21,585 bases of DNA from a virus. The DNA is taken from positions 1 through 21,585 of IMG/VR virus record IMGVR_UViG_3300046330_000709; one strand, given 5' to 3'. A model generated the notes under the pieces. The model made no database searches. It saw only the letters and a list, made by a program, of their open reading frames with translations, and had not been told where the DNA came from. Positions 2,209 to 19,852 of this stretch are shown piece after piece (position 1 is the first letter of the stretch; each line of letters opens with the position of its first letter). The translations under genes were made by a program, and so were the position numbers.

Positions 2209-3663
2209 TTAATCTGTTATTACTGTACAACCATAAGTTATAAGGTTATTCTTTGAAGTTATACCAGCTCCAGTTGGTGAAGCTGATGGTGTTTGCTGAT
2301 CTAAAGTAAATGCAGCATTAGTATTAAGTAATGTACCAGAATCGAAATAAGTTAATATACTATTAATTTCTGTAACAGGCAATTGATTATTGCTCAAGTC
2401 TACTACATACGTGTTTCTTGGAGTTGGTCCATTTATATGGAATTTTACTAAATCATTATACCCAACGTTTATTATTTGTAAAGCATTTATACTGGGTAAT
2501 GACAAGTTAAAATTGGATATGTTATTGTGATCTAAACTTAGATACGTCAACGAACCGCTTAAAGGCTTTCTTGGATTAAAATGAGTAAGCTGATTATAGC
2601 TTAAACCTAATGAATATAATTGAGTTAATAAATCGAGATTATCAATATAAACTACTTTTTGATTATTTAAGAGTAAAGCAGTAACCGTTGAAAAGCTGTT
2701 AAATTTAAAGGATGCATTATGTATCCCATTTGTGGTATATGTATGAGATACAGTTATAGTATATCCAGCGTAATTATTTATAACACCATCACCCCAATCT
2801 ACTCTTGCTGTAAAAAAGTCGCTACCTTCTATATCAAAGCTTGTAGAGTTATTGTCAATATTAAAGGAGATTAAAACAGCAGCAGTATCTGGTATATTTT
2901 TATAATCTTTAATAAAAATATCACCAATAGTAGGGGTAAAATTAAGTGATACAGCTTTTGTATAAACAGGATTGAAATCAGTATTTCTTAGCCTTAACCC
3001 ATTCCTATAAATGGCAATAGTCTTTTTTAAATAAGCACTATCAAATTCTAATATATTGTTACCATCGCTAATTTTTTCTTCACCTATTATCTGATTATAA
3101 ATAACTGGAGATGATTGAACCGCCCATGCTGAATTACCATCTGCATCACTTGTAAGTACCTTACCTGCCCCCTGAGTTCCATCTACTATTTTTACATTGC
3201 CGGCAATATGCAGTTTTGCTGTAGGTGTACTGGTGCCAATGCCTACATTACCTGTATTTTTGTTGTAAATGTTATCAAGATCATAATCCATATCCCAATC
3301 TTTAAAAGCAAAAATATTTGCCCTAGTTGCAATGGTTCCTCCAAATTCTGCTGTATCTCCAAAAGTTACAACAGTACTGTCAATCTTTATCAGAACTGTA
3401 CTATCATTAATAACATTCGCTACCAAGCCAGTATCTACCAATACATGTTTTATCTGATGCTCAGCAAATTGCCTCACTCCATTAACTGCATCTAGAGTTT
3501 TATTGATAGCTGTATTTACCTTAGTGGCAGTAATTGCCTTAGATGCATTCGTTACAATATTGGTATTGTTGTATGCCCTGGCACTATCTACAAGTGCGGC
3601 AGGTGTTTGTGCAAATGCAACTCCAAAAAAAAGTAATGGAAGTATAAAAAGTAATTTTTTCAT
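2209..3663 (-). CDS. Secreted tail-fibre-like protein with GIGT stalk, PKD-like domain and leucine-rich repeats
   Basis: The 484-aa protein has a signal peptide at residues 1-18 (ending VAFA, then Gln). Residues 20-68 match the same region of the neighbouring 271-aa protein. The motif GNVGIGTSTP lies at 138-147, followed by KLHIAGNV and GKVLTSDADGNSAW, a pattern common in Bacteroidota fibre-like proteins. A beta-sandwich of PKD type with DWGDG at 289-293 comes next, then irregular leucine-rich repeats at about 325-427 (for example YSLGLSYNQL and TYLSLDHNNI). The tail QTPSASPTGAGITSKNNL resembles a recurring end of Bacteroidota LRR proteins. The PKD and LRR part probably binds a ligand, making this a receptor-binding candidate. 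It ends 16 nt before the coiled-coil gene. Confidence 0.75.
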   Translation of the reverse strand: MKKLLFILPLLFFGVAFAQTPAALVDSARAYNNTNIVTNASKAITATKVNTAINKTLDAVNGVRQFAEHQIKHVLVDTGLVANVINDSTVLIKIDSTVVTFGDTAEFGGTIATRANIFAFKDWDMDYDLDNIYNKNTGNVGIGTSTPTAKLHIAGNVKIVDGTQGAGKVLTSDADGNSAWAVQSSPVIYNQIIGEEKISDGNNILEFDSAYLKKTIAIYRNGLRLRNTDFNPVYTKAVSLNFTPTIGDIFIKDYKNIPDTAAVLISFNIDNNSTSFDIEGSDFFTARVDWGDGVINNYAGYTITVSHTYTTNGIHNASFKFNSFSTVTALLLNNQKVVYIDNLDLLTQLYSLGLSYNQLTHFNPRKPLSGSLTYLSLDHNNISNFNLSLPSINALQIINVGYNDLVKFHINGPTPRNTYVVDLSNNQLPVTEINSILTYFDSGTLLNTNAAFTLDQQTPSASPTGAGITSKNNLITYGCTVITD

Positions 3664-3673
3664 TGGTAATATT

Positions 3674-4489
3674 TTATGGGTAATATCTTATTTCTAAATA
3701 GCCTCTGTATATACCATCAACTAAACCACCAGCATGATCGTAGTTATTTATGGTATATACTAATGTTGTTGTACTGCCAGATGCTGATTGAGAAACTAAA
3801 TTGTAATTATATTTTAGTAAGCCAGTTAGGTTAATTGTAAAATTATCTTCAGTGGCAGTAGTAATTGTATTATCCCAGGTTAATGTAATTGTGTAAACTC
3901 CTACCCCTGTTCTTCCATAACTTACGGCAATTCCCGGCAACCCAGTGTCTGGAAAATAATGAGCTACTGCAGGAGCAAAAGTTGATACCTGATAAATTCT
4001 TGCAACATAACTTTTATACGGCCTTGAATCTGGCAGGCTAGTAAGATTTGATCCATTGCCATAATAAAAATATGCAGCTACTGATCCAGTAACATTTACG
4101 TCACCATTTACATCTAATTTACTATTGGGAGTAGTGGTGCCTATACCAGTATTGCCATCCTGTGTAACTGTAATTGCCGGAACGCTATTCGTTCTAATTA
4201 TAAAACTTGCTGTATCGTTTGTACCGATATATTTAGTTATAGAGCTAGTTCCTGTATTGCCAGTTAATCCCCAACCAGTAGAACCCGTTGCACTATCCCT
4301 CAATGCAGCTATAGCGTCTAATATTTTTGTATTGGCTGTATTTACTTTAGTAGCTGTTATAGCCTTCACATTATTGGTAACAATATTGGCACTATTGTAT
4401 GCTCTTGCTGTTGCAATTTTAGCCGTTGGGTCTTGCCCAAAAGATAAAAGGCAGATAGAAAATGAAAGGAATAAAAAAAGAATTTTCAT
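3674..4489 (-). CDS. Secreted tail-fibre-like protein with GIGT stalk
   Basis: This 271-aa protein has a signal peptide (MKILFLFLSFSICLLSFG before Gln19). Residues 20-66 are clearly paralogous to the next gene: both carry ARAYN, NIVTN and KAITATKVNTA. WGLTGNTGTSSITKYIGT at about 73-90 and GNTGIGTTTP at 112-121 are patterns frequent in Bacteroidota phage fibres and in secreted host proteins of the same type. The C-terminal 110 residues are predicted beta strands (VYTITLTWDNTITTATEDNF) and have no counterpart in the paralogue. The gene is the first after the intrinsic terminator and lies 10 nt before the LRR fibre. The likely role is a fibre or receptor-binding subunit, supported by domain type and position only. 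Confidence 0.72.
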   Translation of the reverse strand: MKILFLFLSFSICLLSFGQDPTAKIATARAYNSANIVTNNVKAITATKVNTANTKILDAIAALRDSATGSTGWGLTGNTGTSSITKYIGTNDTASFIIRTNSVPAITVTQDGNTGIGTTTPNSKLDVNGDVNVTGSVAAYFYYGNGSNLTSLPDSRPYKSYVARIYQVSTFAPAVAHYFPDTGLPGIAVSYGRTGVGVYTITLTWDNTITTATEDNFTINLTGLLKYNYNLVSQSASGSTTTLVYTINNYDHAGGLVDGIYRGYLEIRYYP

Positions 4490-4507: not shown

Positions 4508-4533
4508 GAAGGGGTAAAATAATTTACCCCTTC
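4508..4533 (-). terminator. Intrinsic terminator after the tail tube gene
   Basis: A perfect 11-bp inverted repeat (GAAGGGGTAAA at 4508-4518, TTTACCCCTTC at 4523-4533) encloses a 4-nt loop. On the minus strand the hairpin is followed at once by TTTT. It begins 2 nt after the stop codon of the -1 frame extension at 4536-4538. The T-run is short and the next gene starts only 18 nt beyond the hairpin, so readthrough is likely and it may set the tube-to-fibre expression ratio. Confidence 0.7.
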
Positions 4534-4535
4534 CC

Positions 4536-4610
4536 CTATCCGTTTAAAAAATCATCGTTGAAATCTTCATTGAATTCTCCGGTGTAAGGGATACCGGACC
4601 CCCCACCTAA
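4536..4610 (-). other. Putative -1 frameshift extension of the tail tube gene
   Basis: The zero-frame gene ends GAT TTT TAG. Slipping back one base on T TTT, with the TAG stop in the A site, lets a tRNA-Phe re-pair perfectly and reads TTA, then GGT GGG GGG, for 24 more codons up to TAG at 4536-4538. The added peptide has a glycine linker (GGGSG) and an acidic repeat (GEFNEDFNDDFLNG). The terminator hairpin starts 2 nt after this second stop, which suggests that the extended frame is the real gene end. A T5/T6 homopolymer error would look identical. Confidence 0.55.
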
Positions 4611-5173
4611 AAATCCCCACAAACAAAGAGCGATTCAATGGTAGCCAGTGGATATTTAGCAGGAATATTTTTGCTAATTACCTCACATTCTACATTCCAG
4701 ATTACTTCTTCTTCCAGATCATCAGCTACAGGATCCTTTGCTTTGATAGAAGCAGTTTCATCAAATAAATGAAGCAAGCTGCTGGTACCAAAAAATGGAA
4801 TTAAATCTGTCCTGTCAATGATCTCATTATAGAAATGATAATTCTCATAATACACAGGATCATTAATCAACAACTTCATGTTGCGTGGACCATAAGTAAC
4901 CCGGCGGCTACCAAAGCCCTTCAACTCTTTTGGCTCTCCCGGATCATAATTACCGGATGTTTCAGGCAATATGATAATATTTCCAGCATCAACACCAGCT
5001 TGCCAAACTGCAAGATCAAGTGGACTAGCTTTAAGGGTAGCGTAATAATTTTTTTTCACAAAACCAGAAAGGCGAACCCGGGCAAATTCTCTTTCAAAAG
5101 AACCCGGGCAATCGTGGCATACGTGCAGAGCTTCGCTACCGCCGCAACCATATAATGATGAATAGGAACCCAT
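4607..5173 (-). CDS. Putative major tail tube protein
   Basis: This 188-aa protein follows the neck and terminator-like genes, where the tail tube gene usually lies. Predicted beta strands dominate (GFVKKNYYATLKAS, GNIIILPETSG, SRRVTYGPRNMKLLINDP), with a helix near FYNEIIDR and an acidic C-terminal part. The strand-rich layout suits a tube subunit, but no family is recognised with certainty. The N-terminus has four cysteines in a short span (YGCGGSEALHVCHDC), perhaps a metal site. The start at 5173 is the first ATG after the 59-nt gap that holds the tandem repeat and hairpins. The zero-frame stop TAG at 4607-4609 seems to be bypassed by a -1 shift that adds 24 residues (see 4536-4610). It could instead be a minor tail or neck protein. 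Confidence 0.5.
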   Translation of the reverse strand: MGSYSSLYGCGGSEALHVCHDCPGSFEREFARVRLSGFVKKNYYATLKASPLDLAVWQAGVDAGNIIILPETSGNYDPGEPKELKGFGSRRVTYGPRNMKLLINDPVYYENYHFYNEIIDRTDLIPFFGTSSLLHLFDETASIKAKDPVADDLEEEVIWNVECEVISKNIPAKYPLATIESLFVCGDF

Positions 5174-5225: not shown

Positions 5226-5251
5226 GCCTTACTTAAAAATTATAGTAAGGC
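5226..5251. repeat. Inverted repeat over the stop codon of the 151-aa gene
   Basis: GCCTTACT at 5226-5233 and AGTAAGGC at 5244-5251 form a perfect 8-bp stem with a 10-nt A/T loop. The stop codon TAA at 5233-5235 lies at the stem-loop junction. No T-run follows on the minus strand. It could stabilise the 3' end or act as a weak terminator between two late genes. Confidence 0.45.
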
Positions 5252-5688
5252 TTTATTAAGGTTCGCCACTTGATACTTAAAGCAGCCTTTCCGGTTATCG
5301 TTAACTTTCCATTACCGTATGATGTGGCTGCAAAAGCGAATGTGGCACCACTAACATTGGTATCTGCTACAATGGCTGATGCTACCTCTGCAGTTGCTAC
5401 CGTTAATGTGCCGGCAACTTTTTTATACCGGTAATATAATTTGCCAGTTACACCGTCACCTGCTGTTGTGGAACCTACAGCAACAATTTCCATTATACCG
5501 GCACTATTGTCTGCAATGGCAAGTGTATCAATTACTACAGGTGTTGCATTGGCTGTGGTATATGTTGCAATTTTACCAACTGGTACTAGTTTACCGGATA
5601 TTGTTTTTTGATACTGGATTTGAGCAGATAACGATAAGCTGCAAGCCAATACTAACATGGAGCAGATAAGAAATTTTAAACTTTTCAT
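5233..5688 (-). CDS. Secreted beta-domain protein between tail terminator and tail tube
   Basis: The preferred start is the ATG at 5688, giving 151 aa that begin with a strong signal peptide (MKSLKFLICSMLVLACSLSLSA before Gln23). The longer frame from 5745 would overlap the upstream gene by 28 nt and bury this peptide, so it is rejected. The mature part is one beta-sandwich-like domain: strands near GIMEIVAVGSTTAGDG and KLYYRYKKVAGTLTVA, ending KLTITGKAALSIKWRTLI. This layout resembles a small beta domain seen at the ends of many phage fibres, where the last strand carries a Trp followed by alternating hydrophobic residues. A decoration or fibre tip role is possible. An exported protein inside the tail morphogenesis block is odd. 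Confidence 0.65.
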   Translation of the reverse strand: MKSLKFLICSMLVLACSLSLSAQIQYQKTISGKLVPVGKIATYTTANATPVVIDTLAIADNSAGIMEIVAVGSTTAGDGVTGKLYYRYKKVAGTLTVATAEVASAIVADTNVSGATFAFAATSYGNGKLTITGKAALSIKWRTLIKPYYNF

Positions 5689-5717
5689 TTTTGATGAATT
5701 TTTAAGTTGAATAAATT

Positions 5718-6314
5718 TTATTGACAAAGGCATTGATCTACACATGCCTGGTTAAACTTCATTTCAATTCTGTATCGGATTAAAAACATACTCATTTGCT
5801 CATTTAAAAAATAGTCACTCTTTGGGTATTCCTGTCTAAATACTTCTACATGATTCATATTAGATCCCAAAGGAGTAATAGAGCAATTGATGATATTTAA
5901 TTGCTGTAAAAAGCTTTGTGTTGGTACCTGTGGTATTCCAAAAACAAAGAGTGGCTCTACTGCATCTTTATTACTACCAATTAATTTACTGTTGGTAATA
6001 ACAATCATGGCCAGCTCTGTACTGCTTTTTACATCATAATTATTGCCATAGCTTTTTTTCTCATAGCTGTACACATTGGTAAGCTGCTTATGATAAATTT
6101 GTATGGCCAATTTACTATCAGGCGTTATCACCATGGCTTTGCCTTCTGGTGAAATAATGGCCGGTAAATATTCAGGCTCTTTTTGTGTAGCATTTTTGCG
6201 TACTACTACTGTACTGAGCTCATGATATACTGCCGGTTGCAATGCTGATTTATTCAAAGAACCTGCCTTTAAAGAATCATTGATGTAGGTTACTATCTGA
6301 TTAATAAAAGGCAT
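5718..6314 (-). CDS. Putative tail terminator / tail completion protein
   Basis: The 198-aa protein begins right after the stop of the neck gene with no gap, so translation is probably coupled. It opens with an amphipathic helix (INQIVTYINDSLKAG) and continues with strands, which fits the general layout of tail terminator proteins that cap the tube at the neck. Its position after capsid and connector genes and before the tube gene supports this. It has no signal peptide. The C-terminus is unusual, ending CVDQCLCQ, a cluster of three cysteines. No family motif is certain, so the role rests mainly on gene order. Confidence 0.45.
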   Translation of the reverse strand: MPFINQIVTYINDSLKAGSLNKSALQPAVYHELSTVVVRKNATQKEPEYLPAIISPEGKAMVITPDSKLAIQIYHKQLTNVYSYEKKSYGNNYDVKSSTELAMIVITNSKLIGSNKDAVEPLFVFGIPQVPTQSFLQQLNIINCSITPLGSNMNHVEVFRQEYPKSDYFLNEQMSMFLIRYRIEMKFNQACVDQCLCQ

Positions 6315-19372: not shown

Positions 19373-19852
19373 TTAATAATTAGCAAATTGTTTATGTAAT
19401 CTATTTGCACCTTCTTGATAAGCAGAAGCTGCTTCTTCCTTAGTACTATAGAATCCCAAACAAATATCTTTGTTGTTTACGCTTATCCTTGCCCTCCATC
19501 TATCAGGTGGATAATAATAAACCCCCTTAAATCCACTGGTATTGTTTTTGTACTTTTTCCCATTCTGTTGATTCTGTCCATGATTGGCAATTCTTAGGTT
19601 TTCAATCCTATTATCAGTTCTGATCAAGTTCTCATGATCGATTTCTTTACCTTCTGGTATTTCGCCAAAATGCATTGTATAAATAATTCTGTGAGCTTTT
19701 CTCGGCTTTCCGTCAAAGCATACTACAACATATCCATTTCGATCTAAGCAGCCGGCTAAAGAGCCAATTCCTTTAGTCCCATTCCTTTCAACCTTCCAAA
19801 AAAGTTGACCATCATTGTAGTCGAAAATTGTATTTAAAGATTCTTTTTTCAT
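19373..19852 (-). CDS. Free-standing HNH endonuclease with AP2 DNA-binding domain
   Basis: The 159-aa protein has an HNH core: AHRIIYTMHFGEIPEGKEIDH at about 53-73 and NRIENLRIAN at 81-90, which together give the H-N-H metal and catalytic residues. An AP2-type DNA-binding domain follows at about 107-150 (SGFKGVYYYPPDRWRARI, LGFYSTKEEAASAY). This pairing is typical of phage homing endonucleases that spread by cutting related genomes. It overlaps the tape measure stop by 4 nt (ATGA) and ends 2 nt before the large tail gene, so it sits neatly in the operon. No intron or intein is visible. Confidence 0.85.
   Translation of the reverse strand: MKKESLNTIFDYNDGQLFWKVERNGTKGIGSLAGCLDRNGYVVVCFDGKPRKAHRIIYTMHFGEIPEGKEIDHENLIRTDNRIENLRIANHGQNQQNGKKYKNNTSGFKGVYYYPPDRWRARISVNNKDICLGFYSTKEEAASAYQEGANRLHKQFANY

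Follow-up and report, generated by a model that had tools for sequence, protein, structure and literature searches.

What is encoded in the reading frame that stays open past the stop codon of a phage tail gene, and do ribosomes enter it? The question is raised by the window, the whole stretch of 21,585 nucleotides analyzed here (positions 1 to 21,585 of IMG/VR record IMGVR_UViG_3300046330_000709). On its minus strand, the zero-frame gene (4607..5173) encodes a tail-tube-type protein of 188 aa, the short form, for which 28 homologues were aligned, and its C-terminal end ...VCGDF is specified by the codons ...GGG GAT TTT TAG (TAG 4609-4607). A sequence-only reading had proposed a -1 programmed frameshift at this point, and its coordinates were borne out when we re-read the minus strand: the stop TAG at 4607-4609 directly follows GAT TTT, and the -1 reading, TTT TTA GGT GGG GGG TCC ... 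AAC GGA TAG, yields F-LGGGSGIPYTGEFNEDFNDDFLNG. The extension (4536..4610, minus strand) thus adds 24 residues past the Phe, namely a Gly linker and then a C-terminal tag, EFNEDFNDDFLNG (4539..4577, minus strand; an acidic/Asn-rich F-x3-F-x3-F motif with the core EFNEDFNDDF, in peptide form GDFNDDFNNDFNN), before it ends at TAG 4536-4538. The 10-bp hairpin AAGGGGTAAA/TTTACCCCTT (4509..4532, minus strand), which had been described as a terminator starting 2 nt past the -1 stop, is present but begins 3 nt past it, and a consensus scan scored no terminator there.

The openness of the -1 frame, taken by itself as a signal, turned out to be insignificant: of 199 gene stops in related phages, 44% are followed by a -1 frame open for at least 24 codons. 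Its length is therefore weak evidence, uninformative on its own and in need of comparison. Relatives were reached through the terminase of the 56 kb record, and the 188-aa protein was then searched against those records. This retrieved homologues in G002 (65% identity), G003 (59%), and G005, which carries two tandem copies (36% and 28%), and a profile scan added L027 (58%); a wider terminase scan with profile search found homologues in 31 of 50 records. Close relatives are few, four in all, and two of them, G003 and L027, have all but the same core. A tblastn search of the core and two distant homologues against isolated phages and two scans of bacterial genomes gave no match, and a viral scan with the G008 homologue recovered G008 alone.

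Among these relatives, the C-terminus at the stop of the 188-aa gene is a conserved end. G002, G003, and L027 stop at the residue identical to that of the window, all with TTT TAG G, and their -1 frames stay open for 45, 20, and 25 codons, respectively, reaching almost to the next gene. G003 and L027 combine near-identical cores with -1 extensions that differ greatly. In more distant family members, too, the stop falls within a few residues of the same point. Comparison with homologues thus upheld the stop and the open -1 frame, which are kept in G002, G003, and L027, although the slip sites vary. In G005-type phages the -1 extension is absent, and the tandem second gene copy bears a tag in frame, SFDNSFDDSF.

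This conservation bears on the simplest alternative, that a T was lost from a T6 run through a sequencing or assembly error and that the only product runs in frame through the extension. With a longer T run there would indeed be one open frame, and homopolymers are error-prone on some platforms. The T5 run is also found in a second record, IMG/VR 3300046331_000690 (56,120 bp), which is 100% identical over the entire window, a weak independent support since reads may be common to both records. The decisive point is that relatives of 58-65% identity share the stop residue and the -1 arrangement, with T4 at the stop in G003 and L027, and that distant members end nearby, so the same error would have had to occur independently in every assembly. 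We consider a lost T, which the sequence-only reading had kept as its alternative, to be ruled out by the identical stop of the relatives, with a negligible probability left to it.

Two further groups of homologues also show open -1 frames. G031-33 (L125-127) have a long open -1 frame past the stop with no slip site, which we left out of the support because it may then simply be the next gene. The distant homologues L139 and L136 (G024 and G028) have -1 frames of 207 and 225 codons with no ATG close after the stop and slip sites of G_GGG_GGG or T_TTT, and probably carry large, frameshifted C-terminal domains.

How would ribosomes reach the second frame? The proposed slip site, T_TTT_TAG (4607..4613, minus strand), would let the P-site tRNA-Phe slip back by one base and pair perfectly again while the stop codon occupies the A site. 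The perfect re-pairing holds, but the site is not a canonical heptamer, unlike those of three close relatives: no X_XXY_YYZ heptamer occurs in the window overlap, which offers the P-site T_TTT_TAG alone, and the overlaps of G002 (A_AAT_TTT), G003 (C_CCA_AAG), L027 (C_CCA_AAC), and G024 (G_GGG_GGG) all contain canonical heptamers. The perfect P-site slip T_TTT is found in the window, G008, and G028, with T_TTT_ACG and T_TTT_ATT among the sites of relatives, and most other family members lack a slip-prone site in the overlap. Slip-prone sites occur in 5/5 members with a tag-type -1 ending vs 3/20 others (Fisher p = 0.001), and canonical heptamers in 3/5 tag-type members against a background of 0.0057 per codon. 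By its sequences, the family appears to behave as a -1 frameshift of which the window copy is a less canonical member. The claim that -1 recoding extends the tail-tube-like protein by 24 residues is accordingly strongly backed by relatives, in which the stop, the open -1 frame, slip-prone sites, and the tag recur.

A possible stimulatory stem-loop (4581..4607, minus strand) starts at the G of TAG, and stems lie at the equivalent place in G002, G003, and G024, beginning at or just past the stop in several relatives. The folding z for the window is about -0.2 to -1.0, near zero and not significant, and it reaches significance in some relatives (L027, G008). By eye, the window and G002 seemed to share a conserved pseudoknot (GGGGT:ATCCC with CCGGT:ACCGG), which was set aside since the folding z-scores are weak for both. 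A +1 shift on T_TTT was likewise rejected: in the window and three relatives the +1 frame adds just 3-14 unconserved residues, with the extensions FRWGVRYPLHRRIQ, FRWG, FRGFGKPTNRIFR, and FRD.

The same products could arise if RNA polymerase, rather than the ribosome, slipped on the T run, and G024 does have a G8 run. G003 and L027 carry ribosomal heptamers instead, and the T5 of the window and the T4 of G003 and L027 are shorter than the runs usually known to slip, so that transcriptional slippage is highly improbable. Separate translation of the extension as a short peptide, by re-initiation after the stop, seems just as remote. Stop and downstream frame do adjoin, and coupled translation is common in phages, but the -1 frame has no ATG, GTG, or TTG past the stop and a single internal TTG in the overlap, and the in-frame examples that we checked have the tag at the end of a larger tail protein. 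From sites and frames together we infer ribosomal slippage, at a rate that would leave the longer form in the minority.

The content of the extension, unlike its openness, exceeds chance. The acidic F-x3-F-x3-F motif arose in 3 of 400,000 random 25-codon stretches (a chance of ~1e-5 per 25 codons), and it appears once in the full six-frame translation of this phage, at the extension. Across ~610 kb searched in six frames, it is confined to the end of the 188-aa-type gene, bar two stop-broken frames: it lies in the -1 frame in the window, in G003 (EFSDEFSDEF), and in the distant G008, where DFNQDFGPDF closes a 128-aa -1 extension, and in frame on the second tandem copy of G005-type phages. The whole records of this phage (G001), G003, and G008 hold exactly one tag each, which in every case belongs to the -1 extension, and the fibre motif described below occurs solely downstream of it; G002 has neither. 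These observations weigh on the view that the open frame is non-coding chance and the protein 188 aa only. The base rate of open frames at gene stops and the unimpressive RNA structure speak for chance, yet the tag's rarity, its standing as the sole tag in three genomes, and the way it tracks the fibre motif of the next gene make chance very unlikely.

The tag extends well beyond this family. A degenerate DNA pattern for F[ND][DENK]DF[ND][DENK]DF, for which ~0.2 chance matches are expected by our estimate, matched at least 119 stretches in IMG/VR. In 59 of the 80 stretches fetched, the tag lies no more than 8 residues from the C-terminus of an ORF, with the consensus GDFNxDFNNDFNN. Its carriers span several unrelated families: two clusters of 16, gpJ-like tail proteins, proteins that look LysM-like by eye, and others. 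A few matches fall within proteins, and the 80 include a few D-rich proteins of a different kind (e.g., L164, L221). In L143-L222, as at 4539-4577 of the window, the gene behind the GDFNxDFNNDFNN tag usually has an N-terminus of the TNGNNEITG type. For one G005-type phage (L113, record G054), the predicted structure of the second tandem copy has a disordered tag region (pLDDT ~40), as expected of a free peptide. As far as the sequences go, what the window extension carries is a C-terminal tag that recurs among phages and goes together with the gene that follows, a property invisible from the window alone. A literature search covering few subscription journals found no description of the tag.

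Downstream of the extension, the next gene (3674..4489, minus strand; 271 aa) has a signal-peptide-like start and then a fibre N-terminal motif, NIVTNNVKAITATKVNTANTKILDAI, which makes it the proposed docking partner. It is followed by a second fibre-like gene (2209..3663, minus strand; 484 aa) with the same N-terminal motif, NIVTNASKAITATKVNTAINKTLDAV. Signal-peptide-like starts (e.g., MKILFLFLSFSICLLSFGQ) occur on the virion-type genes 3674-4489, 2209-3663, 5233-5745, and 1794-2192, an uncommon feature of phage structural genes. The N-terminal motif N..I[TS][GA] (typically TNGNNEITG; also TNGNxEITG), a pattern composed after the sequences had been viewed, is present in 40/51 genes that follow a tag vs 12/333 other ORFs from the same loci. 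The p-value of this adjacency is inflated by related sequences, yet the tagged proteins come from several unrelated families.

We also built a fibre N-terminal HMM from other phages, with no tube-family locus included, and ran it on 543 ORF N-termini. Its best match of the 543 is the window's next gene (E = 7.4e-6), followed by the neighbour of that gene (E = 1.2e-5) and by the genes after the G008 and G003 extensions. No other N-terminus scored below 0.1, and none in G002, whose extension has no tag. The next gene in G005-type phages is motif-like by eye (NYITGQ) and was missed by the HMM. At its end, the partner in G008 has a GDSL lipase/acylhydrolase domain, which would fit a tail fibre or spike. 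Isolated phages show the same pairing: in Parabacteroides phage PDS1, gp59 ends with GGDYNKDFNNDFNNNDVS and gp60 starts with VIKTNGNQEITG, and in Croceibacter phage P2559S the tag and motif are likewise in adjoining genes. Phage B124-14 of Bacteroides joins the gp59-type domain straight to the fibre and lacks the tag; a fusion in place of tag and motif is what a docking pair predicts.

A second arrangement was seen in G002 (L018, 2142 onward) and L027 (4606 onward), which share another -1 ending, VNGDYLSIN / VNGSFLNIN. Their next genes have a different common start, DIP..S..IMTHD / EIP..S..IMVHD, and by sequence this ending and start suggest a second type of tag and partner.

The frameshift may be real and the tag may serve something other than fibre docking, for instance as a binding site for a tail-assembly chaperone, a processing signal, or a contact to the host surface. 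We regard this as unlikely, though it carries appreciable weight: docking rests on adjacency, the motif is missing from the genes behind some tags (e.g., L150, L154, L193), and a few tag matches are internal. The excess of motif-bearing genes directly after tags over the controls argues against it, as do B124-14, where both parts are fused and the tag is gone, and the phages with the other extension type, which lack the motif. Adjacency thus leads us to favour, with some reserve, a tag that docks the fibre encoded next.

As for the core, its identification as a tail tube protein is no firmer than probable. Sequence searches with the family in PHROG, Pfam, and PDB gave nothing convincing. An AlphaFold model of the core from the 28-sequence alignment reached pLDDT 81, and its fold matches are weak, the best in PDB being the Sf11 tail (E = 3.5e-3) and the others mostly tail tube, terminator, and baseplate proteins. 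The gene order in the window and relatives (MCP, connector-type, terminator-type, then the 188-aa gene) fits a tail tube as well, with roles assigned to the neighbour genes by position only, as they have no PHROG match. Further along the window, an HNH-type endonuclease-like ORF (by eye) lies at 19373-19852, where it separates the tape measure gene from the next tail gene.

Tail and capsid proteins extended by frameshifting have been described before, mostly with Ig-like domains as the extension, and the SPP1 extension is reportedly dispensable. No Ig/FN3-like domain was found in the window extension, which consists of linker and tag only. The likeness named in the sequence-only reading holds for the products, since SPP1 and Listeria PSA each make a C-terminally longer second form, but fails for the direction of the shift, which is +1 in both and not -1. 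In SPP1, the tail tube forms gp17.1 and gp17.1* share an N-terminus, and the minor form is extended at its C-terminus through a shift at the stop codon (PMC6316719, PMC8718954). That shift is +1, at CCC UAA, and the part gained is an FN3 domain of 87 residues (PMC6316719), whereas the window has a -1 frame with a 24-residue linker and docking-type tag, and the codon before its stop is TTT, not a rare proline codon as in SPP1. The tail-shaft gene (tsh) of Listeria PSA, A118, and A500 likewise gives a longer second form by a shift on the codon before the stop, but this is a +1 shift, at CCC UGA, with a different extension (PMC5009743). A closer -1 precedent is the tail protein of Lactobacillus phage A2, in which a tail structural gene is recoded; A2 is grouped with Ig-like extensions (PMC5009743), a comparison made by description. 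The lambda pair gpG/gpGT also comes from a -1 programmed frameshift in a tail gene and sets the ratio of two products, but these are chaperones absent from virions and encoded beside the tape measure gene (PMC5009743). In the phage of the window, though outside the window itself, two overlapping ORFs just precede the tape measure gene (L010:14906-15639). The second of them lies in the -1 frame and a T9 run (T_TTT_TTT) is present; they are probably a tail assembly chaperone frameshift of the gpG/gpGT type.

Taken together, we consider it very likely, from sequence comparison, that a -1 frameshift makes a minor, tagged fusion form of the tail-tube-type protein. Most ribosomes would terminate at TAG and release the 188-residue protein, and a minority would slip by -1 at or just before the stop, here most plausibly through tRNA-Phe on T_TTT with TAG in the A site, and append the Gly-rich linker and the tag EFNEDFNDDF. 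The tag would then be the peptide onto which the fibre from the next gene docks through its N-terminal motif. Because an abundant tube subunit cannot usefully bear a fibre on every copy, the tagged form would need to be limiting, and a frameshift would provide a low-copy tagged form of such a subunit, which fits the few fibres per virion. Two ways of limiting it are suggested: this lineage would use the frameshift, and G005-type phages a second gene copy reserved for the tagged form.

More broadly, and on balance only slightly in its favour, we propose that phages of Bacteroidota hosts use an undescribed 'peg and socket' mounting of fibres, in which a short C-terminal DFNxDFNxDF peg on whichever tail protein is encoded before the fibre gene pairs with an N-terminal ITG-type motif, the peg being supplied by -1 frameshifting here and by gene duplication in a related group. 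The tag and its partner motif occur in many phages, including isolates of Parabacteroides and Croceibacter, and could aid the finding of fibre genes in unannotated gut and environmental phages and the understanding of modular fibre exchange. If the proposal is true, a -1 frameshift at a stop codon would set how many tail subunits can bear a fibre, and a short tag with a testable partner would open the reason for the frameshift, the stoichiometry of fibre mounting, to direct test.
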